64,000 nucleotides of DNA from a virus. Positions 4,730 to 37,976 of this stretch are shown in pieces (positions within the stretch are counted from its first letter, which is position 1; every line of letters starts with the position of its first letter). A program made the translations under genes and the position numbers. The stretch lies in the IMG/VR virus record IMGVR_UViG_3300010158_000028, positions 1 through 64,000 of that record; one strand, written 5' to 3'. The notes beneath the pieces are model-generated. The model did no database searches and was not told the origin of the DNA. It saw nothing but the letters and a program-made list of their open reading frames with translations.

Positions 4730-4918
4730 ATGAGATTTGTAGACTATGACTTTGACTTGGGACCAGATGGTTCAATATTCATGGATGAAACATTAAGACC
4801 AGCAATGATTGAGGTTAAAGAAGGTGATATATTTGTTGCCACCGTATACAATGATAAGGTGTTATTAAGAAAAACAAAAGGGACATTATGTGCATGTCCA
4901 CCCGAGGAATCAAAATGA
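4730..4918 (+). CDS. Small conserved phage protein, 62 aa
   Basis: Starts MRFVDYDFDLGPDGSIF, probably a small beta-rich soluble protein of unknown function. AGGAGAATAAA precedes the start. The stop overlaps the start of the secreted nuclease gene in an ATGA at 4915-4918, indicating coupled translation and fixing the nuclease start. Confidence 0.6.
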   Translation: MRFVDYDFDLGPDGSIFMDETLRPAMIEVKEGDIFVATVYNDKVLLRKTKGTLCACPPEESK

Positions 4919-5688
4919 AAAAATTAATTTATGCTTTACTTTTTGTTTGCGTTAATGTATTAGCAAATCCTATTGACGATAACTGCCCACAATTCGTTCT
5001 ACGTGGTGCACCAGTGAGTAAATTAACTCAGAACACTACAAAATACCTATGTAAACAAAACTATGCTATTCATTACAGAAACGATACCAAAACTGCAGAA
5101 TATGTCGTTGAACATCTTACACTACCCGCAGTAACAGGTACAGTTAAACGCCAAGATGATTTTAGACCTGATCCAGATATCCCTAAACAAAATCAATCTT
5201 TACTATCAGACTATGCTGGCAACCCATATGATAGAGGTCATCTATCACCTGCAGGTAACAATACACAATCCGCAATTGTTATGAGTGAAAGTTTCTTTTT
5301 ATCTAATATGGTACCGCAAGTACCTAATCACAATCGTGGTATTTGGAAACAATTAGAAACCTATACTCGTAATTGGGCAATTGAAGGTGGTGATCTGTAT
5401 GTTATTACGGGAACATTTTATGCTCCTGGTTACTTAACTATTGGTACTAACAAAGTTGGTGTACCTACTCATTTATGGAAAGTAATTGTTGACCGTAAGA
5501 ATGTTAAATCAATTGCATTTTTCTTTCCTAATGAAGCATTACCAGTACCAGATTTACCAAAGTATGCAGTATCGATTGCAGATATTGAAGGTATAACACA
5601 AATTGATTTTATGCCTCAGTTACCACCTGAATTAAAAAGATTAGAAGCAAACAAACCAGACTTAACTAAGTGGAGTGGGTTGCACTAA
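4915..5688 (+). CDS. Secreted DNA/RNA non-specific endonuclease (NUC family)
   Basis: Residues 1-17 form a signal peptide (MKKLIYALLFVCVNVLA), followed by a Serratia-type beta-beta-alpha-metal nuclease domain. The catalytic motif is YDRGHLSPAGN (general-base His in DRGH), and NMVPQVPNHNRGIWKQLE supplies the metal-binding Asn. The ATG at 4915 is chosen over an upstream frame because it has a GAGGAA site, overlaps the previous stop and begins a proper signal peptide. A periplasmic nuclease made late could degrade incoming DNA, or host nucleic acid during lysis; the role is inference. It is last in the late block 4439-5688. Confidence 0.85.
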   Translation: MKKLIYALLFVCVNVLANPIDDNCPQFVLRGAPVSKLTQNTTKYLCKQNYAIHYRNDTKTAEYVVEHLTLPAVTGTVKRQDDFRPDPDIPKQNQSLLSDYAGNPYDRGHLSPAGNNTQSAIVMSESFFLSNMVPQVPNHNRGIWKQLETYTRNWAIEGGDLYVITGTFYAPGYLTIGTNKVGVPTHLWKVIVDRKNVKSIAFFFPNEALPVPDLPKYAVSIADIEGITQIDFMPQLPPELKRLEANKPDLTKWSGLH

Positions 5689-6377: not shown

Positions 6378-6697
6378 TGGATGTTGTGGAACTTGTTAAT
6401 AAGTATGGTTTTCCTATTGTTGCAGCTTCGGGTTGCGGATATATGGTGTTTTATGTTTGGTCTTGGGCTACTAAAGAAGTTAAACCTGTTCTCAGTGAAG
6501 CAAATGCAACTCTAATTGGATTAATTGATAGAATCAGAATGTTAGATAATGATTTAATTAGATTGAATCAAAAGGTTGATGTTGTTCTACATCTCCGTGG
6601 TAAAACAATTGAACATGAACGGGTATTAGCAGAACAAAAAATTAACGCATTTGTGGATGATGAGGATAAGAAAACTGCATCAGCCGGTGAAGGTTAG
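6377..6697 (+). CDS. Small membrane protein, paralogue of 4439-4717
   Basis: A 106-residue protein with an N-terminal hydrophobic segment (about residues 11-31), then a helix with RIRMLDNDLIRLNQKVDVVL, matching the layout of the protein at 4439. AAAAGGA lies upstream. It sits directly behind the HNH gene, which appears to have inserted between the late block and this gene. Its 3' end overlaps the converging amidotransferase-like gene by 56 bp. Confidence 0.55.
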   Translation: MDVVELVNKYGFPIVAASGCGYMVFYVWSWATKEVKPVLSEANATLIGLIDRIRMLDNDLIRLNQKVDVVLHLRGKTIEHERVLAEQKINAFVDDEDKKTASAGEG

Positions 6698-7337
6698 GTT
6701 TATATAATCTATTCACAAAATTGAGTAACAATTCGTGATGGTCATTATTGTGCCAGTGTTTCTTCATCCAACTATAACTCTGATACCAATTATATTCACT
6801 TTCTGGATGACACCCAATTAATCCTATACGGTCTTGAATAATTGCCATTGGATCATTATTGGCATATGTTGCAACAACTTCAAATTTAGTTTCATCACCA
6901 ACTAAAGCACATCCATCATAGAAAAACATTTTTTCTGGTTTGTTTTCCCATGTTATATCTATTGCTTTTGCGTGTGGTCGTCTAGTATCTGTATTAGGTT
7001 GTCTAATATATTGAACTGCTTCAACACCATCTAAAATGTCAAAGTAATCTTTACCTGCCCAATATGCACCCATACAGATACCTAGATATGCGCCACCTTT
7101 TTCCACAAATTCTCTGATAACATTACGATTCTGTTTGAATAGATAATCAAAACTATCTGCATCTCCTATACCACCAGGAAACGCAACCATATCTACATCA
7201 TCAAAAAAATTATCATCTAATTCATGTCTAGTAAATATCTTAAAATTATATTCACTTTCTAATGATTTAATAATACCGTTACCTGACTGTATCGAACACT
7301 TAGGTTGATGCACGAATAACGCTATTACGGGTTTCAC
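6642..7337 (-). CDS. Biotin-protein-ligase N-terminal / GATase-like protein
   Basis: A 231-residue protein resembling the BPL_N family (class I glutamine amidotransferase-like fold). Visible: a nucleophile elbow GICMGAYWAG, the upstream FPGGIGDAD loop, and a C-terminal CHPESE supplying the His/Glu of the catalytic triad. The reaction is unknown. The GTG at 7337 is chosen because it overlaps the stop of the upstream small gene as GTGA; an earlier TTG at 7382 would only duplicate sequence coding for that small protein. It closes the curli-type cassette, though membership in it is uncertain. Confidence 0.65.
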   Translation of the reverse strand: MKPVIALFVHQPKCSIQSGNGIIKSLESEYNFKIFTRHELDDNFFDDVDMVAFPGGIGDADSFDYLFKQNRNVIREFVEKGGAYLGICMGAYWAGKDYFDILDGVEAVQYIRQPNTDTRRPHAKAIDITWENKPEKMFFYDGCALVGDETKFEVVATYANNDPMAIIQDRIGLIGCHPESEYNWYQSYSWMKKHWHNNDHHELLLNFVNRLYKPNLHRLMQFSYPHHPQMR

Positions 7338-7471
7338 CTGATATAGTTTCCAGTGACTACCACATAGATGAATAATACCCAACCAAATCTTAATGCAATA
7401 TCAAACCATCTTTCAAAATGATCTAACCATGATTTAGTATCACTGTTTTTGTTCTTGATCCCGTCTTCCAT
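7334..7471 (-). CDS. Small membrane protein, 45 aa
   Basis: Begins MEDGIKNKNSDTKSW and has one transmembrane segment (ALRFGWVLFIYVVVTG) near the C-terminus. Start and stop overlap the genes on both sides (the stop forms GTGA with the amidotransferase-like start), which supports it being real. Function unknown. Confidence 0.5.
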   Translation of the reverse strand: MEDGIKNKNSDTKSWLDHFERWFDIALRFGWVLFIYVVVTGNYIR

Positions 7472-7598
7472 TGTCAACCTTTCCTATTTGCACTTCATGA
7501 TAGGTATCTGGTTCAACATATTTGTCCCAGACTTTTTGTCCTGTGTTCCAACCAAATACAGTAATAAATCCAATTGCAATATAAGTTAATACAAACAT
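7440..7598 (-). CDS. Small membrane protein, 52 aa
   Basis: Starts MFVLTYIAIGFITVFGW, an N-terminal transmembrane helix followed by a charged tail. GGAGATA lies upstream. It begins 10 bp after the cyclase gene and overlaps the next small gene, so it belongs to the same transcript. Confidence 0.5.
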   Translation of the reverse strand: MFVLTYIAIGFITVFGWNTGQKVWDKYVEPDTYHEVQIGKVDNGRRDQEQKQ

Positions 7599-7608
7599 AA
7601 TATCTCCA

Positions 7609-9615
7609 TTATTTTGATGTTGCTTTATAAGTCCCTGCCCAATCTTCTGGTTTACCTTCTTCTAATCTATCTATCATTAATTTATAATACTCATACATCT
7701 CTTTATTCTGAATCATTTGCGTTCTTGCTGTAGTTAATGCTTCATCCCATTTACCTTCATAATACCAATACAGAAAAGCATTTTGTCCTTCTGTTTGCTT
7801 TGACAATGTATATATCTTCACGCCTTCCTTCTTACCTTTAACTGCAATACAATCCAATTCAAATACATCATATTCATCCTGAACTAATTTGGCAGTTTCT
7901 GGACCCAATATAATACGTACCCCATAATTCTTAGATTGACCTTCAAGGCGACTTGCGAGATTGACTCCATCACCAAGACAAGTATAATCAAAACGCTGAG
8001 AGGAACCCATATTACCGACAACAACAATGTCACTGTTAATACCCAAGCCCATACCAAAGGCGGGTATACCTTCTTTAATAACTTCTTCATTAAATCCATC
8101 TAGACTCTCCATCATTTCTAATGCGGTTTTAACTGCCATCTTTGCATGATTAGGTTCATCTAGTGGCGCATTCCAAAATGCCATCTGTGCATCACCAATA
8201 TACTTATCTAGTGTTCCATTGTTCTCTAAAATCTTTGCGGTCATTGCAGTCATGTACCGATTCATAATTTTAGTAAGACCTTGAACATCTTTACCATAAT
8301 GTTCACTGATACTTGTAAATCCTCTTACATCGGTAAACATAATTGATAATTGTCTTGATTCACCACCAAGTGTTAATAACTCTGGATTCTTTTGTAATTT
8401 TTCAACAAGTGCGGGTGATAGATATGTACCAAACTGTTTCTTGATTTGCATCTTTTGTAAGAATTCAGATACAAACTTTACGGCATAACAATGTAAACTA
8501 ACCAAAACAAAACATACAACCAAAGCAGTTGAGTCCAGTAAGGACAAAGCCGCATCATAATAAACAAGACTACCACCAACACCACCAGCAATAACCAATG
8601 CCGCAAATCCAATCCCCACATATGTCCACCTTGATAAAAGAATAATTAATATACTACCAAAAATCATTAATAATATTTCTGCGCCATCTGCCCAATCAGG
8701 TCTTTGAATATTGGTTTGACTAGTTAAAGTATCTAAAACTGCCGCTTGTAAATAATGTGGGTAGACTGCTCCAATAGAAGTAGCGACCGGGTTGTTAAAC
8801 CCTTTTGCTGTGAGACCAACAATGACGATTCCACCATCGAAGGATTTGGGTAACTTATTAAGAGAATGTTCTTTAGGTCTTGATTTCCAATCAACCCAAA
8901 TTCTACCGAACTCATCCGTTGTGATTTTGCCAAATTTAGGAATTCTGACTGCTTCAATTCCTGTCTCTGTAACTTTAACTTGAAAACTTGGATCTCCTGA
9001 AGCAACTCGCAATGTTTCAAGACTGATACTTGGATACAACTTTTCTTCAAATCTGACGACCATTGGAATTCTTCTGGTGACGCCATCAATCTCGGGAAGT
9101 GTATTAACAACACCAATGCCAGCAGCACTCTCATTTATTATCCTTGTGTTAGGTTGAATACTATTATATTCAATACCTACTGAACCAGAACCAATAACTG
9201 ATACACCAGGTCTGAATGGATCGTAATTTGCTTTAATTGGGTCATCACTTCCTGTATGTGGAAGAATGACTGAAAATTGTTTTAGTGTTTGTGCTAACTG
9301 ATTGTCTTGATTAAAGCGATCACGCTCAGGCATAAAGACATTAAACACAACAAGCCCAGCATTACGAGAATACAAATCAGCAATAATGGTTGCGTATTTA
9401 CTTCTTGGGAACGGAAATTGTCCTTCTTTTTGAATAAACTCATCGTCTATGTTTACTACATGTATCTGTTCGGATACAGTAGTCTCCTTATTAGTTATTA
9501 AAGTGTCGAAATACCGAAGTCTTACGGATTCAACAAATGAGGGATTAGCGATTCTAATGCATACTAATAATATTAATGTTAGTATTGCGGTCCACGGAGA
9601 TAATAATTTTTTCAT
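7609..9615 (-). CDS. CHASE2-domain class III adenylate/guanylate cyclase
   Basis: A 668-residue membrane signalling enzyme. Residues about 10-25 are a transmembrane segment, 30-305 a periplasmic CHASE2 sensor domain, about 312-378 three further transmembrane helices, and 420-600 a class III cyclase domain making cAMP (or cGMP) from the nucleotide triphosphate. Catalytic residues appear intact: metal-binding D429 (MFTDV) and D475 (KYIGD), adenine-side K471, and transition-state N552 and R556 (DGVNLASRLE). The start follows the previous stop by 2 bp. CHASE2 cyclases beside FecR-domain genes are common in bacterial chromosomes, so this pair was probably acquired together. A complete cyclase in a lytic-type phage genome is unusual. 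Confidence 0.88.
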   Translation of the reverse strand: MKKLLSPWTAILTLILLVCIRIANPSFVESVRLRYFDTLITNKETTVSEQIHVVNIDDEFIQKEGQFPFPRSKYATIIADLYSRNAGLVVFNVFMPERDRFNQDNQLAQTLKQFSVILPHTGSDDPIKANYDPFRPGVSVIGSGSVGIEYNSIQPNTRIINESAAGIGVVNTLPEIDGVTRRIPMVVRFEEKLYPSISLETLRVASGDPSFQVKVTETGIEAVRIPKFGKITTDEFGRIWVDWKSRPKEHSLNKLPKSFDGGIVIVGLTAKGFNNPVATSIGAVYPHYLQAAVLDTLTSQTNIQRPDWADGAEILLMIFGSILIILLSRWTYVGIGFAALVIAGGVGGSLVYYDAALSLLDSTALVVCFVLVSLHCYAVKFVSEFLQKMQIKKQFGTYLSPALVEKLQKNPELLTLGGESRQLSIMFTDVRGFTSISEHYGKDVQGLTKIMNRYMTAMTAKILENNGTLDKYIGDAQMAFWNAPLDEPNHAKMAVKTALEMMESLDGFNEEVIKEGIPAFGMGLGINSDIVVVGNMGSSQRFDYTCLGDGVNLASRLEGQSKNYGVRIILGPETAKLVQDEYDVFELDCIAVKGKKEGVKIYTLSKQTEGQNAFLYWYYEGKWDEALTTARTQMIQNKEMYEYYKLMIDRLEEGKPEDWAGTYKATSK

Positions 9616-9617
9616 AG

Positions 9618-9998
9618 TTATTTTTCCTCACATGGAGGCATATTGTAAAATGTTATACCACTAATTATTCCTACTACTATTGAAACTGGTGTTGCTGCGC
9701 CCGCTATTACAAATATATTATTTATTGCTCCACCCATCCAAATAGAACCCATAAAATTATCCATTTTTACTTGTGATTCTTTTGGTAAACCATCTTTGTA
9801 ATTTAATAAAAAAATCTTTCCTATCGTTGTTCCTATAAACCCCAGTGGATTGATTTCATAAACATTAGGCATATTCAATGCTATTGCTGTTGTTGCTGTA
9901 TCTGCAATAGCACCTTCTTTTGCTGTTGGTTTCAAACACATAGAAAAACAAGAAAAACTAGTAAACAATAACAATATCATTACGTAATATTTTTTCAT
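9618..9998 (-). CDS. Exported small membrane protein, 126 aa
   Basis: Has an N-terminal signal or anchor (MKKYYVMILLLFTSFSCFS) followed by two hydrophobic segments around residues 48-62 and 88-118 and a C-terminal NMPPCEEK. Cysteines at about 17 and 21 leave a lipoprotein possible, but no clear lipobox is seen. Family not recognised. It sits between FecR and the cyclase, with its start overlapping the FecR stop in ATGA, so it probably works with them in the envelope. Confidence 0.55.
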   Translation of the reverse strand: MKKYYVMILLLFTSFSCFSMCLKPTAKEGAIADTATTAIALNMPNVYEINPLGFIGTTIGKIFLLNYKDGLPKESQVKMDNFMGSIWMGGAINNIFVIAGAATPVSIVVGIISGITFYNMPPCEEK

Positions 9999-11098
9999 TT
10001 TTGTATAATAGTAATTGTTGTTGATCCTCCACTATTGATTCTTTGATATAGTGGAACATTACTCTGTGTAATATTTAGTATCAGATTTGCGTCTTTTCCT
10101 ACAATTACCTGTGCAAAATGTGTACCACCTTTTGTCAATACTAATCTATCATACTCATCTATACCATAGAGTAATCCTGATGCGGGATCATAACCAGGTA
10201 ACATTGATAACTCTGCAGTCAATACATCTTGACTGGCAAACAATGCAGCATTAACTTGATCCAATACATTAGGTAATAAATCAAAATCTAAAAAATTAAT
10301 ATCTAATGCATTATATCGTAATACATCTTGATCCAATACAGAGGTCTTTAATAAATCTTTATTCAAAAAATTTACATCAAGCGCATTTCTAGTTTCTGGT
10401 CCTCTTTGTTCACTTTGTTCTCTTTGAATCTCTCTTGGTGGATCAATAATCAACATATTGTTAATATTCATTTGATCCATATGAACAATAACTGGTCTTG
10501 TTGGTGGTGTGCTTAGTGATGTTACTAATGTTGCTTGATACGCAACATCCATGTGGACTGTACCTGAATCATTCGTAACTGATATTGCACCTGTAACACA
10601 TGCTTTTTCATCACATGACGGTAATAACATAACCATACTTCTACCTAATTCATCTACCGTCATTGAAAAATCTGTACCTCTTACTGCTATTGTTGCAGTG
10701 GGTGTTTGTATACTCACACTCTGAGGATTGCTTTTTGCTATTTGACCACTAGCATATCTAGCGGTACCTAATGCTACTTTCATTGCCAGTTTGCCTGTTC
10801 CTTTTGCAGGATCGTAGACAAAATCGTCAATGATTAAACGTGACTGCTCAGTAATCTTTACTGTTGTGGCATCATCAAATGTCAATTGTGCTTTGGACTT
10901 AGCAGTGGATATAGTATCATTCATTTCAATACCAGTATTTACCGCACTTGGTATTGATTTTTTATTTCTAATAATTTCGGTAGGACCGGTCTGTTCTGTT
11001 ACTTTACCAACACCACCGAAACTAGTTAGACTGATTGATAGTAATACTGTTGCTATTGCCAGTTGAACTGACGCTAACACTTTTTGCCAATGTACCAC
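9995..11098 (-). CDS. Exported FecR-domain protein
   Basis: With the GTG at 11098 (GGAG site, 9-nt spacing) the protein has 366 residues. A hydrophobic export signal (VLASVQLAIATVLLSISLTS) leads into a FecR domain: GGVGKVTEQTG, then an AQLTFDDATTVKI core and TIAVRGTDFSMTVD. The C-terminal half is extended with repeated LDVNFLNKDLL / LDINFLDFDLL elements and a beta-rich end. An upstream frame to 11215 exists but only mirrors the curlin repeats in another frame and is rejected. In bacteria such exported FecR proteins are often encoded beside CHASE2 cyclases and may act as envelope sensor or scaffold. It overlaps the curlin gene by about 77 bp. Confidence 0.75.
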   Translation of the reverse strand: MVHWQKVLASVQLAIATVLLSISLTSFGGVGKVTEQTGPTEIIRNKKSIPSAVNTGIEMNDTISTAKSKAQLTFDDATTVKITEQSRLIIDDFVYDPAKGTGKLAMKVALGTARYASGQIAKSNPQSVSIQTPTATIAVRGTDFSMTVDELGRSMVMLLPSCDEKACVTGAISVTNDSGTVHMDVAYQATLVTSLSTPPTRPVIVHMDQMNINNMLIIDPPREIQREQSEQRGPETRNALDVNFLNKDLLKTSVLDQDVLRYNALDINFLDFDLLPNVLDQVNAALFASQDVLTAELSMLPGYDPASGLLYGIDEYDRLVLTKGGTHFAQVIVGKDANLILNITQSNVPLYQRINSGGSTTITIIQK

Positions 11099-11618
11099 TT
11101 TGTGTAACTCCAATTGTATTTGTGTTTCCGGTTGCAGTAATATAGGCCGTTGTTGCACCTGTATTTGTTGATGAATGTGTAATTGTATTAGTGTCACCAA
11201 GAACTGTGATTTCACTTATATGATTACCACCGGTACCCAAATTCGTTGTTACTGTGTTATCATCACCAGTAATAATTTGTTTTATTGTTGATCCAGAACA
11301 ACTTGCTGTTCCTGTTGACCCACAAGTAATTGATTGTAGATTACCACTACCATGTGTTGTAACAGTCGTATTTGTTGATGCACCATTCACAATCATGGCT
11401 AATGTATTGTTGTCACCAATCTGTTCTATTGCAACTGTGTTAGAACCACCGCCCATAAAAGCGGAAACTAGTGAATCACCAATAGCATTACCTGTTCCAT
11501 CTTGTGTAATGGTAACTGTAGAACTGTCACCCACCTGCTCAACATATATCTCATTAGCAAATATATTATTAGCAAATAACAACAAAGCCATAATAATATA
11601 GCCTGTTATCTTTTTCAT
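11022..11618 (-). CDS. Curlin-repeat (CsgA/CsgB-like) amyloid subunit
   Basis: A 198-residue exported protein. Signal peptide MKKITGYIIMALLLFANNIFA, then about six imperfect repeats of the curlin type, such as YVEQVGDSSTVTITQDG, AIEQIGDNNTLAM, IKQIITGDDNTVTTN and TGNSNSITINQSN, where Gln/Asn and hydrophobic residues alternate around G-x-x-N turns. Such repeats fold as stacked beta-strands and polymerise as amyloid after export through CsgG. The ATG at 11618 overlaps the CsgG stop as ATGA and is preferred to an upstream frame. A Cys pair near residues 99-106 (TCGSTGTASC) is unusual for curlins. Confidence 0.78.
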   Translation of the reverse strand: MKKITGYIIMALLLFANNIFANEIYVEQVGDSSTVTITQDGTGNAIGDSLVSAFMGGGSNTVAIEQIGDNNTLAMIVNGASTNTTVTTHGSGNLQSITCGSTGTASCSGSTIKQIITGDDNTVTTNLGTGGNHISEITVLGDTNTITHSSTNTGATTAYITATGNTNTIGVTQSGTLAKSVSVSSTGNSNSITINQSN

Positions 11619-12400
11619 TTTGTTTCTTCCTTTTGTTTGAACTTCCATATTCCTTTCTGTTCACCATCTATAATCATTTGAGACACTGCATGTTCTATTG
11701 CTACACGAACAGCATATGTCGTTGGTTCATTTAATGCGTTTCCATTCTCTAATTCTAAAGCATGAGTACCCGCATCAATAAACTTCATCACACCTACATT
11801 ATGTGCAGTGCTATAAATTGTCTTAGATACAGAATTTGTTATTAATACTTCTCCACTTGTTACACTAACCAATCTCATAGAGATAACAACTTCATCAACT
11901 CTGTATTGCTGACTTGCACCGAGTCCTAAAAATCTTGCACCATTACCACCAGAACGAATATTACTATCATAACCAATAATACCACCTTCAATCATTACAC
12001 CTGCAACTGTCAATGGTTTTAATGGTTTTGCTTCTTTACCTTCATAAACTTCTCTTTGGTTCCTAATCAATTGCCGTTCTTTAACTAAATTCTCTAACCC
12101 AACTCTTTCAACAACTTTGAACCAATTCTTTGAATCTTGTAATGCTTTAATTAAAAATACTTCGGCGCCTTGTGTTACTGCTTTACTAAACAGAGCCATC
12201 TTATCACTTGATTTGTTCTGTCCCGTTCTATCTAAAAAACCATATACAGCAATTGCAATCGGAGGTCCATCTAATTCTGGCATTTTATCTAATAATGATT
12301 CTTTAACGGTTAACTTAACAGGATCTTCCTGCAACCGTTGCATTTCATTAGATGCACACCCCGATAACATAATAACAACCAAAATAACAAAATATCTCAT
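11615..12400 (-). CDS. csgG: CsgG-family outer-membrane secretion lipoprotein
   Basis: A 261-residue protein with a lipoprotein signal MRYFVILVVIMLSGC (lipid Cys at 15), then a CsgG/HfaB-type domain: IAIAVYGFLDRTGQ, FKVVERVGLENLVKERQLIR, and VAGVMIEGGIIGYDSN leading into the strands that form the nonameric barrel. CsgG forms the curli export pore in the outer membrane. Length matches E. coli CsgG (277 residues). The start overlaps the stop of the beta-barrel gene in TAATG, and the stop overlaps the curlin start, so pore and substrate are made from adjoining reading frames. Confidence 0.88.
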   Translation of the reverse strand: MRYFVILVVIMLSGCASNEMQRLQEDPVKLTVKESLLDKMPELDGPPIAIAVYGFLDRTGQNKSSDKMALFSKAVTQGAEVFLIKALQDSKNWFKVVERVGLENLVKERQLIRNQREVYEGKEAKPLKPLTVAGVMIEGGIIGYDSNIRSGGNGARFLGLGASQQYRVDEVVISMRLVSVTSGEVLITNSVSKTIYSTAHNVGVMKFIDAGTHALELENGNALNEPTTYAVRVAIEHAVSQMIIDGEQKGIWKFKQKEETK

Positions 12401-14445
12401 TAGAAATTCATTCTTACTTTAAAAATCATTGAATCAGTCTTGTTACCTTCTTTTTGTTGCTGTGCTACTTGTATACCAACATTACTATTCTTTTGTGGTG
12501 AGTAAAACGCACCAGCAGAGGCAGTTAAATAACCATCTGTTGTTGAACTTAACTGACCAGTGACACTAATCTTATTATCAAAATTCTTACGAATCATTGC
12601 ACCAAATTCAGCATAATCAAAACTTCTTGAATTGCTATCAACTGCTCTGGCACTTTGAATACTACCTTTTTCAGTGTAACTATTTACTTTTGTTGTTCCA
12701 AATGTGTATCCAGCAAATAGTCTAATCATTTGTGAAAGCTCAGGACTATAAACTTTATTAGATATCCAACTATCTGTTCCTTTTGTTGCATAATAGTTTC
12801 TAAACAATCCTTCAACATTTCTTATTGAACCAATATCATTACTTGCACTACCAATATTGGTTGATAAAATTAAATCTTTAGGCAACTTGTAAACACTATA
12901 AACACCAAAGTGTTGTTTTTCTTGTTTAGTAAGACTATCTACACCTGACATTCTTGTTGATACTAAACTGTATTGACCACCAATCTTTAAATCACTATTG
13001 ACATCTCTATCAAAAGCAATTGCGGATATATCACTCTTAGAACTATAACCATCAGCCATTGTAGTTTTTAAACTACCGATTGTGGTATAGAATGTTCCGT
13101 TGTCTGTCTTGTATCCATCTTGACGGAATGGATCCATATCTAAACCACGATTGATACCTTTATTCAAATCAGACAATTGTGCTTGTTGGTCAATGCGACC
13201 AGAGAAACTATCATTAGCAACTGAAGTAACTACATCATTAACTAAAGATGAGGCAGCACTTGTAGAACTATCCGATGTTGTTACAGAACCATCACTCCAT
13301 GTTGTTGTAGTGCGAACTAGAGTGGTAATTGTTCGTGTAAATGGTGTTGTAACATTAGTGGTTGTTTCTCTTGCAATAGTTTGCTTTGTTTTGTTTTCGG
13401 TTGCAACATGATGTGCAGTGCTGGCAGTGATTACAGGCAATCCAGTATTAACTACTGTATTATCTGAAACGGTAACTGTAGCAGTGCTTGTGCTAACAAC
13501 TGTAGGTGCGGCAGGTGCTACTGGTGTGACTCCAACCATATCGCAACTTGATGTGCAACCAGGAACAACACCTGGCGTTCCACCACCTGCACCAGAACTT
13601 ACTGCAGTAGCACCAGCGGTCAATGTGGATGGTCCAAAAATATATGCATATTGAAACTTAACAATATCACCAACTGCAACTGATGGAACAAGAAAACCTA
13701 AACCAATTGTATAGTCACCAGTGCCATTATTAACACCGTTGTAATATTGAATTGGATCGGTTGTCCATCCGCTACTGATACCAGCACCAACATTAGTTGC
13801 AGCAGAATATAAACCTAATGCATACTTTGATGATAATGCTTCAGAGAATACTACTTGTTTAATACCAATAGGACTGAATCCTAAAGTATTTGTTGTTGCT
13901 GAACTATCACCTGCTGCCGCTCTAGCATCTGGATCAGTGAAACGACCAAAGTAAAGATTAGTCATTGCTACCGATGATGTTAATGTTGTAGTGATATCAA
14001 CAAATTTTTGATTGTTATTAAAACGAACATCGTTGATTAAACTGTAACCATTACCGTTACCAGTCCAAACTGCACGATTATCAAATGTAGAACTTGCGTA
14101 AGCAATTCCACTGTAATTAGTTAAAATACCACCAGTGATAGAAGTAGCACCAGTGTTATTATTTGTTTGTGTTATAACTGTGCCAGCACCATTCGTATAC
14201 TTAACAGTGAAACCCTCAAACGGAGTTCCTGGAGTTAAATAATCGTATGATGTATTAAATGTTCTTGTACCGGTATTATCATAGAGAATACCAGGACTTG
14301 TGTTACCTTTACTTCCAATTGTACCATAATCACTCACACCAATTTTAATGTAGTCGCCTGTAAGCGCAAAAATCGATCCAGTTGTTTGAGCATATATCCA
14401 TGACGAAAAACATAACAATGATACTGTTATAATTTTTCTAAGCAT
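12400..14445 (-). CDS. Outer-membrane beta-barrel protein with Thr/Ser-rich linker
   Basis: A 681-residue exported protein with signal peptide MLRKIITVSLLCFSSWIYAQ. Residues about 20-285 form a beta-rich extracellular-type domain. Residues about 285-405 are a Pro/Thr/Ser/Val-rich linker containing CTSSCD. The last 260 residues show alternating amphipathic strands ending in SMIFKVRMNF, the terminal-Phe signature of outer-membrane barrels. It resembles an autotransporter or adhesin but I cannot name a family. Its place between CsgF and CsgG suggests a surface partner of the curli-type apparatus. AAGGAAAAAA lies before the start. Confidence 0.65.
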   Translation of the reverse strand: MLRKIITVSLLCFSSWIYAQTTGSIFALTGDYIKIGVSDYGTIGSKGNTSPGILYDNTGTRTFNTSYDYLTPGTPFEGFTVKYTNGAGTVITQTNNNTGATSITGGILTNYSGIAYASSTFDNRAVWTGNGNGYSLINDVRFNNNQKFVDITTTLTSSVAMTNLYFGRFTDPDARAAAGDSSATTNTLGFSPIGIKQVVFSEALSSKYALGLYSAATNVGAGISSGWTTDPIQYYNGVNNGTGDYTIGLGFLVPSVAVGDIVKFQYAYIFGPSTLTAGATAVSSGAGGGTPGVVPGCTSSCDMVGVTPVAPAAPTVVSTSTATVTVSDNTVVNTGLPVITASTAHHVATENKTKQTIARETTTNVTTPFTRTITTLVRTTTTWSDGSVTTSDSSTSAASSLVNDVVTSVANDSFSGRIDQQAQLSDLNKGINRGLDMDPFRQDGYKTDNGTFYTTIGSLKTTMADGYSSKSDISAIAFDRDVNSDLKIGGQYSLVSTRMSGVDSLTKQEKQHFGVYSVYKLPKDLILSTNIGSASNDIGSIRNVEGLFRNYYATKGTDSWISNKVYSPELSQMIRLFAGYTFGTTKVNSYTEKGSIQSARAVDSNSRSFDYAEFGAMIRKNFDNKISVTGQLSSTTDGYLTASAGAFYSPQKNSNVGIQVAQQQKEGNKTDSMIFKVRMNF

Positions 14446-14457
14446 TTTTTTCCTTTT

Positions 14458-14916
14458 TTAGAAACCAAATGTAGCAATAGGCACAGTGATATCTGTTCTA
14501 TTACCATTTGACTCCGTTATCGTTAGTGTTACCTCTGTGCTTGATTTAACCCATGATATATTGGTCCCCTGAAAATCCATTGTACCAGATGTTGCACCAT
14601 TATCAGTAAACATAGAATCTGCTAATTGTTTTGATAATTGTGCATAAATTCGTGATTCAACATTAACAAGAAATTTTGCTAAGTTGGTACTAGATGCAGC
14701 ACGATTAGCCGCATCATTGGCGGCTTTGGCATCATCTTTTAATTTTTGTCTGCGTTGTTGTTCAATCTGCTCAATAGTCAGGACATGCGAAGAATACCCT
14801 ATACCCGAAAATACAGGACTATTGAATTGATGGATTAACTCACCGGCACTTGCAGTAGAAACCGCAAAAAATGTATAATAACAAATAACACAAAGCAACT
14901 TGGTTATTGTTTTCAT
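14458..14916 (-). CDS. csgF: CsgF-like curli assembly factor
   Basis: A 152-residue exported protein with signal peptide about residues 1-24, followed by GELIHQFNSPVFSG, the conserved N-terminus that in CsgF plugs into the CsgG pore. A helical stretch (QIEQQRRQKLKDDAKAANDAAN) and a small C-terminal beta domain (TEVTLTITESNG ... ITVPIATFGF) also fit CsgF. The gene starts 6 bp after the upstream peptidase gene ends and is followed by the barrel gene 12 bp later. Confidence 0.82.
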   Translation of the reverse strand: MKTITKLLCVICYYTFFAVSTASAGELIHQFNSPVFSGIGYSSHVLTIEQIEQQRRQKLKDDAKAANDAANRAASSTNLAKFLVNVESRIYAQLSKQLADSMFTDNGATSGTMDFQGTNISWVKSSTEVTLTITESNGNRTDITVPIATFGF

Positions 14917-14921
14917 AAAGA

Positions 14922-15455
14922 CTATTTATGTTTTATTATTATAGTTTCGTGAGTATAGAGTTGGATTGTGTTTTTGCGTCTTTTTAATGAAAACTCATCA
15001 AAATTCATGTAGTTTTTGGCATCTGCAGAGTCAAAAAGATATATTTTCTCTGTTCGGCAATCAATTTTCGTTACTACAGACCAATGATGCCAAGGTGGTC
15101 CAAACGAAATAATTGCAACTTTCTTTTCATTTATATGTTCATTTAGACAAGCAAAGTATTCATAATGATCATCAAAGAATTCATCCTCAAAAATTACTTC
15201 AAATTTAAACTTTTTTTCTTTTTGAGTTACCTTTTGTAATATTTTTGTAACATTCTCTAAGTATGTACCTTCGGCATAATATTTGTGAAAGAGATTAGGA
15301 TTGATTGATAACATCTCTCGCATTAGTTTCTCTGCACGGTCTTGGCCATACTTTGAGTCTAGATAATGAAATGAATTGATAATAGAGTAGAATCCACAAA
15401 GACCATCAAGTAGTCCTTGTTTATATGGTTCTTTTTTAATTATCGGTTTAGTCAT
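14922..15455 (-). CDS. Papain-like cysteine peptidase-type protein
   Basis: A 177-residue protein with a likely Cys-His-Asp triad: C20 in LLDGLCGFYSIINS, H123/H124 in PPWHHWSVV, and D142 in LFDSADA. The order and spacing suit a papain-fold peptidase, or a related transferase such as transglutaminase. No signal peptide is visible, so it would act in the cytoplasm. The ATG at 15455 is used because the upstream extension runs into the tRNA-Arg gene; no ribosome site is evident. It lies directly upstream of csgF and shares the transcript, but a role in curli-type export is only inferred. Confidence 0.55.
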   Translation of the reverse strand: MTKPIIKKEPYKQGLLDGLCGFYSIINSFHYLDSKYGQDRAEKLMREMLSINPNLFHKYYAEGTYLENVTKILQKVTQKEKKFKFEVIFEDEFFDDHYEYFACLNEHINEKKVAIISFGPPWHHWSVVTKIDCRTEKIYLFDSADAKNYMNFDEFSLKRRKNTIQLYTHETIIIKHK

Positions 15456-15468
15456 AATATTATATATT

Positions 15469-15544
15469 TGGCCTGCTTGGCTGGAATCGAACCAGCGACC
15501 CACAGCTTAGAAGGCTGTTGTTCTATCCACTGAACTACAAGCAG
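15469..15544 (-). tRNA. tRNA-Arg (anticodon TCT)
   Basis: Full cloverleaf: acceptor CTGCTTG/CAAGCAG, anticodon stem ACAGC/GCTGT with loop CTTCTAA, T arm with GGTTCGATTCC. The 3' CCA is encoded. Last of five tandem tRNAs in transcription order. Confidence 0.9.
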
Positions 15545-15548
15545 AAAA

Positions 15549-15624
15549 TGGCTCCCCGACCTGGACTTGAACCAGGGACCTGCGGATTAACAGTCCGTCG
15601 CTCTACCGACTGAGCTATCGGGGA
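15549..15624 (-). tRNA. tRNA-Asn (anticodon GTT)
   Basis: Acceptor TCCCCGA/TCGGGGA, anticodon loop CTGTTAA within a CGGA/TCCG stem, T loop GGTTCAAGTCC, encoded CCA. Four bases separate it from the tRNA-Arg gene. Confidence 0.9.
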
Positions 15625-15630
15625 ATATTT

Positions 15631-15705
15631 TGGTGCCCGATGTCTGGATCAAACAGACGGCCTACGCATTACAAGTGCGTTGCTCTATCACTGAGCTAAT
15701 CGGGC
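15631..15705 (-). tRNA. tRNA-Thr (anticodon TGT)
   Basis: Acceptor GCCCGAT/ATCGGGC, anticodon stem ACGCA/TGCGT with loop CTTGTAA, encoded CCA. Confidence 0.9.
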
Positions 15706-15707
15706 GT

Positions 15708-15795
15708 TGGCGGAAGCTGTGAGATTCGAACTCACGGACCCTTTCAGATCGGCAGATTTCAAGTCTGCTGGTTTAAACCTCTCACCCAAACTTCC
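15708..15795 (-). tRNA. tRNA-Ser (anticodon TGA)
   Basis: 88 nt with the long variable arm expected of tRNA-Ser; anticodon stem GCAGA/TCTGC with loop CTTGAAA; acceptor GGAAGTT/AGCTTCC with one G-U pair; encoded CCA. Confidence 0.9.
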
Positions 15796-15803
15796 ATAAA
15801 ACT

Positions 15804-15887
15804 TGGTGGAGTATCCTGGGATCGAACCAGGCGTGGCAGAGCCGGCGGATTTACAGTCCACTGCATCACCGTTGATGCTTCTACTCC
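15804..15887 (-). tRNA. tRNA-Tyr (anticodon GTA)
   Basis: 84 nt with a type II variable arm; anticodon loop CTGTAAA (GTA); acceptor GGAGTAG/ATACTCC with a mismatch at the last pair; encoded CCA. First of the cluster in transcription order. Confidence 0.88.
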
Positions 15888-24336: not shown

Positions 24337-25023
24337 TTAGACATTATACTTCTTCTCAATCAATTTAATTGCTTTAGCCATTGCTGCATCTATTACATCT
24401 CTAGTAAATGTAGTCATACCATGATGCCTGATAGAATCATCATTCTTTAGTATATCTATAATCTCAGATGGAATTCTTGCCGCTTCTTCTAGTAAATCAG
24501 CAATACGATCATTAGAACCTTCTTGAACACTTTTACGACCAGGAATCTGTCTGCGAATCTCTGCCCGTTTCTGTAACCGAAATACTAGACTCTGTTCCTC
24601 AACTGGTAAATGACTTTCGTCTTTTGTCATTTTATTTTCCTTTAGTTTGTTCTCAACAATCACTGCCGGTAATAACAGAACAGCCGCATGATTACCTGCT
24701 CTAGCTAATCCTTTAACTTCTTCAACTGACTTATCTAACAAATTGCTTGAGTCATCCCAAGCAACAAGTGCGGCAATAGCTCCCCACGCAGCATCCCACG
24801 CAGCATCCCACGCAGCAGCCAACGCAGCATCCCTCGCAGCAACCAACGCAGAATTCAACGTAGCCGCACTCGCAGCATCCCACGCAGCTCTCCACGCAGC
24901 AGCCCACGCAGCAGCCAACGCAGCATCTTCCGCAGCATCCCACACGTCTGGGTTTTCTTCTAGCGTCTTTATGACCCAGTCGATGTGATTGGCATTGGGT
25001 AAGTGGCTCCATTTTTCAGTCAT
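24337..25023 (-). CDS. Ala/Trp-repeat protein fused to a second small-protein domain
   Basis: A 228-residue protein in two parts. Residues 1-130 start MTEKWSHLPNANHIDWVI and contain a run of five-residue repeats of the form AAWDA, then ALVAWDDSSNLLDKS. Residues 131-228 begin MTKDESHLPVEEQ and include RLQKRAEIRRQIPGRKSVQEG and RIADLLEEAARIP, a pattern usually found as an independent small phage protein. The frame is open through the junction, so this is a fusion or a read-through pair. A shorter paralogue lies at 25294-25731. The repeats suggest a long Trp-studded helix or solenoid. Function unknown. Confidence 0.6.
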   Translation of the reverse strand: MTEKWSHLPNANHIDWVIKTLEENPDVWDAAEDAALAAAWAAAWRAAWDAASAATLNSALVAARDAALAAAWDAAWDAAWGAIAALVAWDDSSNLLDKSVEEVKGLARAGNHAAVLLLPAVIVENKLKENKMTKDESHLPVEEQSLVFRLQKRAEIRRQIPGRKSVQEGSNDRIADLLEEAARIPSEIIDILKNDDSIRHHGMTTFTRDVIDAAMAKAIKLIEKKYNV

Positions 25024-25310
25024 GCTTGTCCCCTCGCTCGAATCGCTTGCGCTAATGGCTGACGCACTTTGTCAGGCCACTCAGGCAATTCAAGAGTTTC
25101 ACAAATAGTTGCACACGCTTCACGCTCTGCTTCTATTGCTTTTTGTATTTCTTCTATACTATTGTCTACATAATTAATAATGTCTTGGTTGCTCATTTTC
25201 TCTATTCTTTCCCTTTCTATTTTCCTATTGAGTTCCAAACCTTCCACCTCCATGATTCCGTTCCAATATAGTATTCCATGGGTTTTATTTGGCTCAAACA
25301 TATCGTTCAT
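25020..25310 (-). CDS. Small protein with EREACA motif, 96 aa
   Basis: MNDMFEPNKTHGILYWNG at the start, then IEAEREACATICETLELPEW and the ending AIRARGQA, a tail common in small phage proteins of unknown function. GGAG precedes the start. The stop overlaps the start of the Ala/Trp-repeat gene. Confidence 0.55.
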   Translation of the reverse strand: MNDMFEPNKTHGILYWNGIMEVEGLELNRKIERERIEKMSNQDIINYVDNSIEEIQKAIEAEREACATICETLELPEWPDKVRQPLAQAIRARGQA

Positions 25311-25731
25311 TCTTTAACTCCTTTAGTTTATATTTGACAACGACAGCTGGCAACATAAGAACAGCAGAATGGTTACCTTCACTACCTAACTTAGCAACTT
25401 CTTCAATTGACATATTCAGCAACTTGTTTGAGTCATCCCAAGCGATAAGTGCAAAAATTGCATCCAACGCATCATTCCTCGCAGCATCCAACGCAGCAGC
25501 CCACGCAGCATCCAACGCAGCATTCTTTATTGAAGCATCCCGCACAACACCCCACCCAGCATACCTCGCAGCAATCCACGCATCACTCCACGCAGCAGCC
25601 CTAGAAGCATCCCACGCAACACGCCAAGCAGCATCTGTTGCAGCGCTCCACACCTCTGGATTTTCTTTTAGTGTGTCCAAAACCCAATTAATATGCTCTG
25701 CGTTAGGTAAGTGACTCCATTCTGTAGTCAT
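25294..25731 (-). CDS. Ala/Trp-repeat protein, paralogue of 24337-25023
   Basis: A 145-residue protein beginning MTTEWSHLPNAEHINWVLDT, nearly the same N-terminus as the neighbour, followed by degenerate Ala/Trp repeats (AAWRVAWDASRAAAWSDA) and the shared ending IAWDDSNKLLNMSIEEV ... NHSAVLMLPAVVV. The ATG at 25731 has a GGGGACAAGC leader identical to that of the other copy, so gene and leader duplicated together. This copy lacks the second domain. Coupled to the 25020-25310 gene. Confidence 0.6.
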   Translation of the reverse strand: MTTEWSHLPNAEHINWVLDTLKENPEVWSAATDAAWRVAWDASRAAAWSDAWIAARYAGWGVVRDASIKNAALDAAWAAALDAARNDALDAIFALIAWDDSNKLLNMSIEEVAKLGSEGNHSAVLMLPAVVVKYKLKELKNERYV

Positions 25732-25806
25732 GCTTGTCCCCTTGCACAAATGATGTATATCTTGTTCATTCTTCAATCCCAATCAAAAAAATGATCTAAC
25801 AACAAC

Positions 25807-32475: not shown

Positions 32476-33327
32476 ATGATTATACTATTAATATTGATAT
32501 TGATCGGCAGTAACACATATGCACAAACACTAGTCACTAGATCAAGTCCGGGTGGTACTGTTGATACTATCTCTAGAGAATTGATTAAAAATACTCCTAT
32601 TGTTATAGAAAATAGACCTGGTGCTGATGGTGATATTGCTTTAGAAAATGTAATTAATTCTAAAGGAAATACATATTACATCGGTCAACTCAATGCATAT
32701 CTAAAGTATTATATGAATATTGATGATGGTAATAAGAGTATTAATGTCCAAAAAGAATTTGATTATGTTGCCCATGTTGGAAATGTATTAAGTGTGATAA
32801 TTATCCATCCAAATGTTCCAGTTAAAACTATTAACCAATTAATTCAAATTGCAAATACTAATCCAAATACTATAAATTTTGGCACTACAGGCAAAGGAAG
32901 TACCTCAGATATTGTCTATAGATTACTAGGTAATAAATTCTATAACATACCATATAAATCTTCTATAGGTTCACATATTGATCTTATCAGTGGTCAAATA
33001 GATGTTACATCATCAACTGTATTATTATCAAGACCACTACATAAAATAGGTAAAATTAGAATAATACTCAAATTATTTGATGAACCTCTTGATGATATTA
33101 AAGGATCAAAGAATTTAATTGTCCATACCAATGTAATGATACTAAGTAAAAAAGGTAGGATTGATAATAAATTTAAAGATAATATCGTTAGTATAATAGA
33201 ATCTGATAAATTTAAATTAAAAATGCAAGAGAATGGAATATCAGTAAAATCATTGAATAATATTGAATATGATATGCTCCTGACTAATCAAATAAATCAG
33301 TGGAAATCTCTACGGTTGATTAGATAA
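32476..33327 (+). CDS. Bug/TctC-family periplasmic binding protein (copy 1)
   Basis: A 283-residue exported protein with a short signal peptide (MIILLILILIGSNTYA) and the Bug-type fold: SSPGGTVDTISRELI, VIENRPGADGDIALENV and NTINFGTTGKGSTSD at the usual ligand-loop positions. Bug proteins bind carboxylates for tripartite transporters in Betaproteobacteria. It is more diverged and AT-rich than the copy at 36562, and reads rightward against its neighbours. The 3' end overlaps the converging PP-loop gene by 18 bp. No transporter membrane partners are encoded nearby, so its use by the phage is unclear. Confidence 0.78.
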   Translation: MIILLILILIGSNTYAQTLVTRSSPGGTVDTISRELIKNTPIVIENRPGADGDIALENVINSKGNTYYIGQLNAYLKYYMNIDDGNKSINVQKEFDYVAHVGNVLSVIIIHPNVPVKTINQLIQIANTNPNTINFGTTGKGSTSDIVYRLLGNKFYNIPYKSSIGSHIDLISGQIDVTSSTVLLSRPLHKIGKIRIILKLFDEPLDDIKGSKNLIVHTNVMILSKKGRIDNKFKDNIVSIIESDKFKLKMQENGISVKSLNNIEYDMLLTNQINQWKSLRLIR

Positions 33328-34359
33328 TACAGACCGCACTTGGTCTATAGTTGGAGATATTGATTCAGGTACCATTTGGCCATCACTATCTGCCCAACAT
33401 ATTTTCCAAGTAACATTGTTGGAATAATATCTCACAACATTAGATGATTTTAATTCAATATCCTGACCAATAAAATCAGAAAATACTTTTCTTGATTTTG
33501 TATAATGATTGGCTATTGACCAAGATTGAAAATCTGGTGTATCAAAGAAAGATTCAGTATTAACAAAATTGCCAGTTATACCTATAAACCGATATCTTAT
33601 AGAATACCATTTCATTACAAAAGATATCCACCAATAAAAATCATACTTAGTTTTTATCTCTATTGGTGATCTACTCATTAAACCCTGTAGATATTCTTCT
33701 ATATTTCTAAATGCAACCTTTTTATCAGAATAATATTTTGCCATGGCACTACTCTTAAATCTATTTTTATACCAAATGCCCATATTCATTGCATTAAAAA
33801 CTATTACCGATAAATTAAAAGGAATAACATTTTTACCCATATCAATACCTGGAAAATTGGATAACCAATAATTGTTTGATACATTATAAAGATATTTTCC
33901 ACCACTTCCGGTAATAACTTTAGTTTTTAATATATTACCATTCATTAACTCACTTAAAGGTACAATATCATGAGACAGATGTTTTATTCTCTCATATACT
34001 TCGGGTAAAGTCTGTATATCATTATCTGTTATTATAACATGAGGTCTTGCACCAACATCCTCTAATGCTTTAACAACAACTAATGATGATAGACCGGATA
34101 CCAATACATCTTGATAACCTTGGTTCTTTAAGTCTGTTGCCCTCTCATATACGATATCAGAGAAACTCTTTGTTGTTAAATAACTAGGTATAGGACATGG
34201 TGTTAGATTGAAAATACTTGGCACTGTTCTATCAATACCCATACCTGTGTTGCCTAAAAATCCTATTTGATATGCGGTTAGTGTGTCTGTGTAATCAATA
34301 CCCAATTCATCTAACCGATCAAATGTAGATGGATTCTTATATATTAATAAATTACTCAC
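33310..34359 (-). CDS. Degenerate PP-loop / asparagine-synthase-like protein
   Basis: A 349-residue protein similar in plan to its two upstream neighbours, but the ATP-binding PP-loop SGGIDS is replaced by VLVSGLSSLVVV. The C-terminal part (WSIANHYTKSRKVFSDF) matches the neighbours' SNLDVKLGDTWNTYKQPAKDF region. Probably a catalytically altered or inactive third paralogue. The GTG start overlaps the previous stop as GTGA. Confidence 0.6.
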   Translation of the reverse strand: MSNLLIYKNPSTFDRLDELGIDYTDTLTAYQIGFLGNTGMGIDRTVPSIFNLTPCPIPSYLTTKSFSDIVYERATDLKNQGYQDVLVSGLSSLVVVKALEDVGARPHVIITDNDIQTLPEVYERIKHLSHDIVPLSELMNGNILKTKVITGSGGKYLYNVSNNYWLSNFPGIDMGKNVIPFNLSVIVFNAMNMGIWYKNRFKSSAMAKYYSDKKVAFRNIEEYLQGLMSRSPIEIKTKYDFYWWISFVMKWYSIRYRFIGITGNFVNTESFFDTPDFQSWSIANHYTKSRKVFSDFIGQDIELKSSNVVRYYSNNVTWKICWADSDGQMVPESISPTIDQVRSVLSNQP

Positions 34360-35468
34360 TTCAGTAACTTTTCAATAGTATCTTTTGGTATTGTTTCAGA
34401 ACTTTTAAATACATTACCAACATCATCAATTAATCTAAAATACTGAGGAGGATTAGACGCACCACCAGATGCGGATGTTGATGCCAATGGCTCTTTATTC
34501 AAATAATAATCTTCATCATTGGTATAATCATAAATTATTTTCTTAATTGGTCCTTTTATTTCTTGTGTCTTTAATACACCATTATATGTAAGAGCATAAT
34601 TGATAAAATCTTCAGTATCGTAAAATCCTTTTATTGTATCAAATATATTTGGATTTTCTCCTCTTGTTACACATACGTTATATGCTTTACCCCAGCGTGA
34701 AAGCCAAATAAACCACTGCAGATCCAATAAATTATTAATTTCAACAGGACATTTATTCTTATACTGATTAAGTTGATCAATAACAGCATCTTTATTAAAA
34801 AATAAACTTAATGCATTAATTTCACCACGATCAATTGTAATTTTATCTTTAATTGTATTGAAAGACATAGTACCATCATCATCAAGCATTGAATAGATTT
34901 TAATTCTTTTTCTCCATGTATCACTTGTATGCCGAGGAAATGGACTACCATGTATACCCAATAAATTATATCTATCAGTATTTGCCATAAAAATAGAATA
35001 AACGTCACATATATCTTTTACTAATATATTCTTATCTTTAAGGTGTGTTTCATAGAACAATGGATATTCTTTTGTGATTGATGCTCGTGTAGTTATAATT
35101 TGTATTTTTTCATGCCACTTAGAATCTGCCTTCATAAAACTAATTAACATTCCAGTAGAGTCAATACCACCAGACCAAAATATTCTAAGTGGCGTTTTGG
35201 TTTCTAATAATTCATTAGCTCTTTTATCGCATAATTCTTCAAAAACTTTATTGCAATCACCTGTCATTTCATTGACATTAAGGGATAACGTGGGTAAATA
35301 ATTTTGTATAGGTAAATTTACAGAACCTGTTCTATCCAATGTATTATGACAGGAAAATATTCTATTAATATATTCATTTGATGCTAAATTAATGTTATCA
35401 TCTTTATTTTTTAATATAGGTAATAATTGATGTAATAAATCATCATTAAAAATTTTAATTTTGTTCAT
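34356..35468 (-). CDS. PP-loop ATPase, asparagine-synthase-like
   Basis: A 370-residue protein with the intact PP-loop motif LRIFWSGGIDSTGMLISFM near residue 103, which binds ATP for adenylation of a carboxylate or carbonyl substrate. The C-terminal half is specific to this trio and unknown. The ATG at 35468 overlaps the previous stop. The glutaminase domain of true asparagine synthetase is missing, so the amine or acyl acceptor is not evident. Confidence 0.7.
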   Translation of the reverse strand: MNKIKIFNDDLLHQLLPILKNKDDNINLASNEYINRIFSCHNTLDRTGSVNLPIQNYLPTLSLNVNEMTGDCNKVFEELCDKRANELLETKTPLRIFWSGGIDSTGMLISFMKADSKWHEKIQIITTRASITKEYPLFYETHLKDKNILVKDICDVYSIFMANTDRYNLLGIHGSPFPRHTSDTWRKRIKIYSMLDDDGTMSFNTIKDKITIDRGEINALSLFFNKDAVIDQLNQYKNKCPVEINNLLDLQWFIWLSRWGKAYNVCVTRGENPNIFDTIKGFYDTEDFINYALTYNGVLKTQEIKGPIKKIIYDYTNDEDYYLNKEPLASTSASGGASNPPQYFRLIDDVGNVFKSSETIPKDTIEKLLK

Positions 35469-37467: not shown

Positions 37468-37478
37468 AATACTTCCTT

Positions 37479-37976
37479 TCAATTCAATAATGTGTTTAGA
37501 ACTACAACCTGTTCATTTACCTCTTCTGTTGTTGTTGCTGATTGTATATTGTTTGCAACATTTAATATATTTTGTTTTAGTGTTACATTATCTATAAGAG
37601 TAACAATGTTTTGAATGACCAAATGATTATTACCTATTGTATCAAGTGCATCAATAAAATGTTCCGTAATTAATTGTTCTTTTATAACAACTATTTTGGA
37701 TTGATCAAATGACCATTTATTCTTTTCAATATCAAATACAACATCGTTGATTTCTGGCTTTTCTCTAGTAACAATACTATATTCTGTAGTTGAACCTTTC
37801 TCAATTGGTTTACCATCCTCATCAATATAGTATGCACGAATCCATGTTTCTAATTCATCGGACCAAATAGAATCATATGGTAAATCAACATGATAAGGTA
37901 CATACTTATGGATTCTTACATCATTATCTTCAACTACACCTAAGTATTCACCCTTTGAATTTATAGCATAACTCAT
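37479..37976 (-). CDS. Virion-associated or fibre-chaperone-like protein, 165 aa
   Basis: SYAINSKGEYLGVVEDNDV ... VPYHVDLPYDSIWSDELETW resembles the N-terminal layout of tail-fibre assembly-type proteins, followed by a helical C-terminal half. Assignment rests mainly on position next to fibre-type genes. Start coupled by ATGA. Confidence 0.45.
   Translation of the reverse strand: MSYAINSKGEYLGVVEDNDVRIHKYVPYHVDLPYDSIWSDELETWIRAYYIDEDGKPIEKGSTTEYSIVTREKPEINDVVFDIEKNKWSFDQSKIVVIKEQLITEHFIDALDTIGNNHLVIQNIVTLIDNVTLKQNILNVANNIQSATTTEEVNEQVVVLNTLLN

Follow-up and report, generated by a model that had tools for sequence, protein, structure and literature searches.

What does a bacteriophage do with a curli-type export apparatus, and why should its genes stand in one block with a CHASE2 sensor cyclase? 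The role of such genes in phages has been a standing question since 2020, and CsgF and CsgG were reported from pelagimyophages in that year (Zaragoza-Solas 2020, PMC7029224). We approached the question through a stretch of 64,000 nucleotides, here called the window, which makes up bases 1-64000 of a viral record of 161,182 bases. The same record encodes gp23, the T4-type major capsid protein (E = 7e-139), and its source is a T4-like aquatic phage; at the DNA level this gp23 gene gave zero matches in 50,697 records.

Layout and integrity of the block

The block occupies positions 7609-15455 on the minus strand. Read along that strand, five tRNA genes are followed by genes for a 177-aa protein, CsgF, an outer-membrane barrel protein, CsgG, a curlin-repeat protein, a FecR-domain protein, a 126-aa membrane protein, and a CHASE2 cyclase. 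These features and the two open reading frames beyond the cyclase gene are as follows.

15469..15887, minus strand: five phage tRNA genes adjoining the block on its upstream side (ARAGORN, Rfam)
14922..15455, minus strand: 177-aa protein with Cys, His, and Asp motifs; accessory
14458..14916, minus strand: CsgF-like pore partner (Pfam CsgF, 1.2e-16)
12400..14445, minus strand: predicted type V autotransporter of 681 aa, with signal peptide, variable passenger, linker helix (residues 420-435), and barrel (451-680)
11615..12400, minus strand: CsgG outer-membrane lipoprotein pore (Pfam CsgG, 1.3e-51)
11022..11618, minus strand: curlin-repeat substrate, CsgA/B-like (Curlin_rpt, 2.5e-10, three stretches)
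9995..11098, minus strand: FecR-domain exported protein with a C-terminal curlin-like tail (FecR, 1.3e-11; GTG start)
9618..9998, minus strand: 126-aa small membrane protein, occupying the slot of a second curlin or an autotransporter in other loci; accessory
7609..9615, minus strand: CHASE2 sensor with class III nucleotidyl cyclase (CHASE2, 1.1e-38; Guanylate_cyc, 1.9e-19)
7440..7598, minus strand: 52-aa small membrane open reading frame directly after the cyclase gene, in a region kept in the sister phage
6642..7382, minus strand: class-I glutamine amidotransferase-like protein (BPL_N, 3.9e-11; GATase, 4.6e-6)

A preliminary description of this DNA had named an intact curli-type cassette in a phage genome, and its account of gene content, order, intactness, and phage setting was right: every one of the CsgF, CsgG, Curlin_rpt, FecR, and CHASE2 profiles found its match, and the overlaps, substitution ratios, and independent contigs given below agree. 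A TAATG overlap joins the genes for the predicted autotransporter and csgG, ATGA overlaps join csgG to csgA and fecR to the gene for the 126-aa membrane protein, csgA and fecR overlap by 77 nt given the FecR start at 11098, and the remaining intergenic gaps in the block measure 2-12 nt. A second contig of 44 kb is 99.99% identical across the block. From another data set comes a sister contig (L005) in which gene order and flanking genes agree at 80-96% nucleotide identity. All seven genes tested against this sister phage are under purifying selection, with dN/dS values of 0.09-0.16 (177-aa papain-like protein, 0.105; CsgF, 0.163; barrel protein, 0.133; CsgG, 0.161; curlin, 0.149; FecR, 0.107; and cyclase, the lowest, 0.093). 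In a tree of 55 CsgG sequences, the phage proteins form one clade relative to those of the 14 bacteria sampled, with a support of 99. The ancestry of CsgG is of an alphaproteobacterial type, as might be seen if a bacterial contig had been misassembled or the segment were a decaying passenger, but the recurrence of the same junctions and flanks in independent contigs, the single phage clade, and the strong purifying selection leave that explanation with next to no likelihood, and misassembly, which the preliminary description had named as a possible refutation, was rejected.

No copy of the T4-type late promoter TATAAATA was seen on the minus strand within or close to the block, and its count in the window was below chance expectation. 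A search with Rfam upstream of the block returned the tRNAs only and no riboswitch of the kind present in the phage Melnitz.

The edges of the block are more variable. The preliminary description called the 177-aa protein a papain-like peptidase. It possibly has a papain-like cysteine peptidase fold, judging from its motifs, but the name is unproven: the protein had no match in Pfam or PHROG, its AlphaFold model (pLDDT 37) is too poor for use, and a homologue was found in only one sister phage. At the other end, the amidotransferase-like and small membrane genes of the preliminary description are indeed present. They are not part of the core, however, since the amidotransferase region (window positions 6733-7428) and the 126-aa membrane gene are both missing from the sister phage. 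Just past the cyclase gene, on the plus strand at 4888-5688, lies a gene for a secreted-type DNA/RNA non-specific endonuclease (PF01223, 2e-49); homologues of it stand between fecR and the cyclase gene in L114, L116-L123, and L129.

The predicted export proteins and the sensor cyclase

In the pore-insertion motif of CsgF, FxxPxFxG, the two phenylalanines and the proline are kept in 88 of 88 phage sequences and the glycine in 87. (When the PDB was searched by sequence, CsgF gave chance matches only, which were discarded.) CsgG aligns over its full length with the E. coli CsgG structures in the PDB (9e-49), from which its fold is assigned by homology, and the Gly-Cys of its lipobox is present in all 94 phage sequences. 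The constriction differs from that of E. coli: Tyr51 is replaced by Asn or Ser in nearly all phage CsgGs. Six relatives (L007, L012, L024, L025, L033, and L094), giant phages among them, carry a C-terminal bacterial SH3 domain behind a proline-rich linker on CsgG (best match E = 3e-10, that of L024 being weak). This extension, which the window CsgG lacks, may tether the pore to the cell wall.

The gene for the curlin substrate starts at the methionine of MKK, and its product has a Sec signal that we read by eye as ANNIFA^NE. No second curlin was found above the cut-off in the record; an 18-bit, subthreshold curlin-repeat-like match lies at window positions 54406-54501 on the minus strand, in a 371-aa protein without assignment. 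CsgE, the plug of bacterial curli systems, was likewise not found in the record of 161 kb, itself possibly incomplete.

The FecR signal peptide, read from the GTG at 11098, is encoded in an alternative frame across the last curlin repeat. Without an ATG of its own, fecR might be reached from csgA through a -1 or +1 frameshift. This is disfavored, as all 52 distinct phage fecR genes have a start codon of their own before the signal peptide (ATG in 33, GTG in 18, and TTG in 1). Almost all phage FecRs end in the pattern LNITQDG...Q.VN.GG.T.ITIIQ. When a profile of 71 such tails was aligned with the last repeat of the phage CsgAs by hhalign, the match ran end to end at an E value of 1.2e-4 and a probability of 54.5; the probability did not exceed 6.1 in any of 40 column shuffles, or 1.0 with the CsgF, CsgG, and cyclase profiles. 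This one moderate statistic suggests that the FecR tail contacts or nucleates the curlin fiber. No tail of this kind was seen in the sampled bacterial FecRs, for which the fetched stretches were short and many ended soon after the FecR domain, and in the open-access PMC literature the curlin-like FecR tail appears new. It offers a concrete and cheap handle on how export could be coupled to cAMP.

Five of the six catalytic positions of the cyclase, comprising the metal-binding, adenine-specifying, and arginine residues, are intact in 65 of 65 phage sequences. The sixth, the catalytic Asn, is Ser in 35 of these 65 relatives and Asn in the window, where the class III set is complete (two metal-binding Asp, Lys and Asp for adenine, and Asn and Arg), and the enzyme is predicted to be an adenylate cyclase. 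The 161-kb record, though possibly incomplete, yielded no cAMP receptor or cNMP-binding domain, so that the cAMP signal would have to be read out by the host. The cAMP-type control proposed in the preliminary description is accordingly plausible on the side of synthesis, these five positions being kept throughout, and has no receiving domain in the record. In L043, L046, and L089 the cyclase gene lies on the opposite strand, outside the operon.

The barrel protein had no match of its own in Pfam (including PF03797) or PHROG. Its AlphaFold model (overall pLDDT 73.9, the barrel mostly 85-95) has 12 strands at residues 451-680 after a helix at 420-435, and its C-terminal residue is the aromatic Phe. 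The best solved structure found by Foldseek was NalP (1uyn; E = 2e-10, TM score of 0.81 on the target), with further matches to EstA, Hbp, and EspP, and a homologue in L009 matches PF03797 at 1.2e-14. By its predicted fold the protein is a type V autotransporter, which bears out the outer-membrane barrel of the preliminary description. Like NalP, EstA, and EspP, it is predicted to end in a 12-strand barrel with a helix before it; it differs from them in lying within the curli operon of a phage.

Relatives in other phages and in bacteria

A CsgG scan of IMG/VR returned about 130 loci. In the survey of related phages that the preliminary description had suggested, 68 of 127 counted loci had the core complete, in a single order and on a single strand; many of the others were short or truncated by contig ends. 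Seven of the 68 are in contigs of 278-364 kb, and gp23 was present in 7 of 16 long records tested. These large contigs and T4-type capsid genes extend the range of the module beyond marine phages of small-genome hosts. The CsgG of the window belongs to a subclade that includes the giant phages of 278-364 kb, whereas those of the pelagiphages HTVC008M and Melnitz lie elsewhere in the tree. A 3-kb contig from a "Candidatus Pelagibacter" MAG (L135), carrying CsgF-CsgG-CsgA-FecR, also falls within the phage clade and, on this grouping, is probably phage DNA binned with its host.

The predicted autotransporter is found between csgF and csgG in the window and 8 other complete loci; in 10 complete loci it stands between fecR and the cyclase gene, the position of the second curlin elsewhere. 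The N-terminal domains vary from phage to phage, F5/8 type C domains among them, and the barrel is common to them. Four loci have proteins of 1,100-1,450 residues in the fecR-cyclase slot; two were tested, with an F5/8 type C domain found in one and no Pfam match in the other. Exchangeable passengers on a shared barrel fit the pattern of adhesins, and the carbohydrate-binding type of the F5/8 type C passengers would fit a role in adhesion. Other relatives have an adjacent calcineurin-like phosphoesterase and GT4 glycosyltransferase in this slot (L095, 15266-17182; L108, 12438-15476; L120-L126 and L129), accompanied in L108 by a phosphate-binding, PstS-like protein. The pair recalls PlcP and Agt, which remodel lipids in phosphate-starved bacteria.

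The preliminary description held that a pore, plug, amyloid-type substrate, barrel, and sensor cyclase in one operon went well beyond earlier reports. For the core this claim fails, because the pore, plug, curlin, FecR, and cyclase are already together in print: an order of CsgF-CsgG-CsgA/B-FecR-CsgA/B-adenylate cyclase was described in pelagipodophages and pelagimyophages, the module being traced to alphaproteobacteria (Wittmers 2022, PMC9599517). The deposited genomes of HTVC008M and Melnitz show all six of these genes in this order. The window matches this pelagiphage module in the order and orientation CsgF-CsgG-CsgA-FecR-slot-cyclase, with a CHASE2 cyclase likewise at the end of the block, and its CsgG and cyclase are 37-50% identical to those of the two phages. 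It differs in having the predicted autotransporter between csgF and csgG and in lacking a second curlin, which is frequent, not universal, in the pelagiphages; the slot is filled by the 126-aa membrane protein. The histidine kinase that precedes CsgF in the pelagipodophage form was not found either, there being no HATPase_c match in the 161-kb, possibly incomplete record. The open-access PMC literature held no report of curli genes in giant phages or of an autotransporter in such a module, and both appear new on that basis. Neither the SH3 extension of some giant-phage CsgGs nor the recurrent pairing of FecR and CHASE2-cyclase genes in bacteria was met in the papers searched.

Homologues of CsgG, of CsgF with its pore-binding motif, and of curlin are shared with the curli systems of E. 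coli and alphaproteobacteria (csgBAC/csgDEFG). Unlike these, the phage operon adds FecR and a cyclase. Neither was detected by our models near csgG in 14 bacterial loci, and bacterial curli operons have been described as lacking both (PMC9599517). In about 20 bacterial genomes, matches to the phage-type FecR and CHASE2 cyclase are separated by no more than 10 kb, often by less than 1 kb, a count taken from match lists for a sample of 398 genomes of Pseudomonadota (the phylum of a Rhizobium genome). Accordingly, the phage module looks like a fusion of two units, curli having been joined to a preexisting FecR-CHASE2-cyclase sensor pair. Comparable sensors are known to act on the cell surface. 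In Burkholderia, the BiofilmReg operon likewise sets a FecR gene beside a CHASE2 sensor gene, although there the sensor is a histidine kinase and the FecR a LysM-FecR, and its disruption abolished biofilm (PMC5192318). In Sinorhizobium meliloti, the CHASE2 cyclase CyaD1 governs surface polysaccharide; removal of CHASE2 makes cAMP production constitutive, and the polysaccharide output requires the receptor Clr (PMC5498481). Neither system has a linked curli pore, and a curlin-like tail is unreported for both (PMC5192318, PMC5498481).

Possible function, and other genes of the window

The explanation that we favor, to which we give a probability of about one-half, is that the block is a phage-borne envelope-remodeling module in which FecR and the CHASE2 cyclase link fiber export to cAMP. 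After infection, the Sec pathway would export all parts; CsgG and CsgF would conduct curlin to the cell surface, and the autotransporter would display a second, fast-changing surface domain. The periplasmic FecR would touch or nucleate the fiber through its curlin-like tail, and its FecR domain would signal to CHASE2 and so release the cyclase, whose signal would be read by host cAMP receptors. The payoff may be an altered surface that promotes adhesion or aggregation of infected cells or excludes competing phages. This explanation is supported by the profile matches, the purifying selection, the conserved motifs, the order of the core at 68 of 127 loci, the predicted autotransporter fold, the tail match, the FecR/cyclase neighbors in bacteria, and the precedents of BiofilmReg and CyaD1. 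Counting against it are the lack of CsgE, a cAMP receptor, and a histidine kinase in the record, the replacement of Tyr51, the change of Asn to Ser in 35 of 65 cyclases, and the modest tail statistic. Moreover, neither cytograms nor electron micrographs of Melnitz-infected cultures revealed clumping (PMC9004378).

It is possible, though we would put it at distinctly lower odds, that the machine monitors itself: the curlin repeat of FecR would join or nucleate the fiber, assembly would be passed through CHASE2 to cAMP, and the autotransporter would serve as a second adhesin. If so, the infected cell, including that of giant phages, would contain an amyloid-coupled cAMP sensor of a type not known in bacteria.

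Two further explanations seem unlikely to us, and about equally so. The first, suggested previously (PMC7029224, PMC9599517), is that CsgG without CsgE is an open pore through which nutrients or cofactors enter the infected cell's periplasm. In line with this, CsgE was not found in the record, and the block of some relatives encodes a PstS-like protein or the phosphoesterase together with the glycosyltransferase. The CsgF motif and the curlin substrate are conserved, however, and the predicted autotransporters and second curlins of the variable slot would be products of export. In the second, the cyclase is the main point, raising host cAMP to redirect metabolism, with the surface proteins acting as sensor input only. 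The conservation of five catalytic positions in 65 of 65 sequences and the lowest dN/dS of the block, 0.093, agree with this, but the order of CsgF, CsgG, and curlin is equally conserved, and in some copies the cyclase gene lies outside the operon.

A role in the timing of lysis is more doubtful still. For Melnitz, in which csgA and csgB were stated to be missing, CsgG and CsgF were proposed, with modeling of the pore, to form a gated outer-membrane hole (a secretin or pinholin) that triggers lysis (Buchholz 2022, PMC9004378), and constriction residues unlike those of E. coli could accord with such a use. That proposal relied on the absence of csgA and csgB, whereas the Melnitz record annotates two curlin-repeat proteins, curlin genes have been identified in myophages (PMC9599517), and the curlin of the window is present and under selection. 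The phage has, moreover, a separate endolysin (8e-78) and a weakly supported spanin candidate (6e-4), 30 kb from the block, and FecR, the cyclase, and the predicted autotransporter would be left unexplained. Of the roles named in the preliminary description, aggregation and exclusion are plausible and release is less likely. The replacement or supplementation of the second curlin by the predicted autotransporter, together with the exchange of its surface domains between phages, favors a role in display at the cell surface over one in lysis or uptake.

Several genes outside the block were also noted. Two TctC/Bug tripartite tricarboxylate receptors (32476-33327, plus strand; 36562-37482, minus strand), which presumably hint at a betaproteobacterial link, surround three proteins without assignment; the two of these at 34356-36562 share the motif FWSGGIDST and look ATP-pyrophosphatase-like by eye. 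In an 804-aa protein (55152-57566, minus strand), the N-terminal part resembles a cytidyltransferase and is joined to one resembling a zeta-toxin/AAA kinase. At a local GC peak of 0.417, positions 24337-25782 on the minus strand encode two paralogous alanine- and tryptophan-rich proteins with AAWDAAWDAA repeats.
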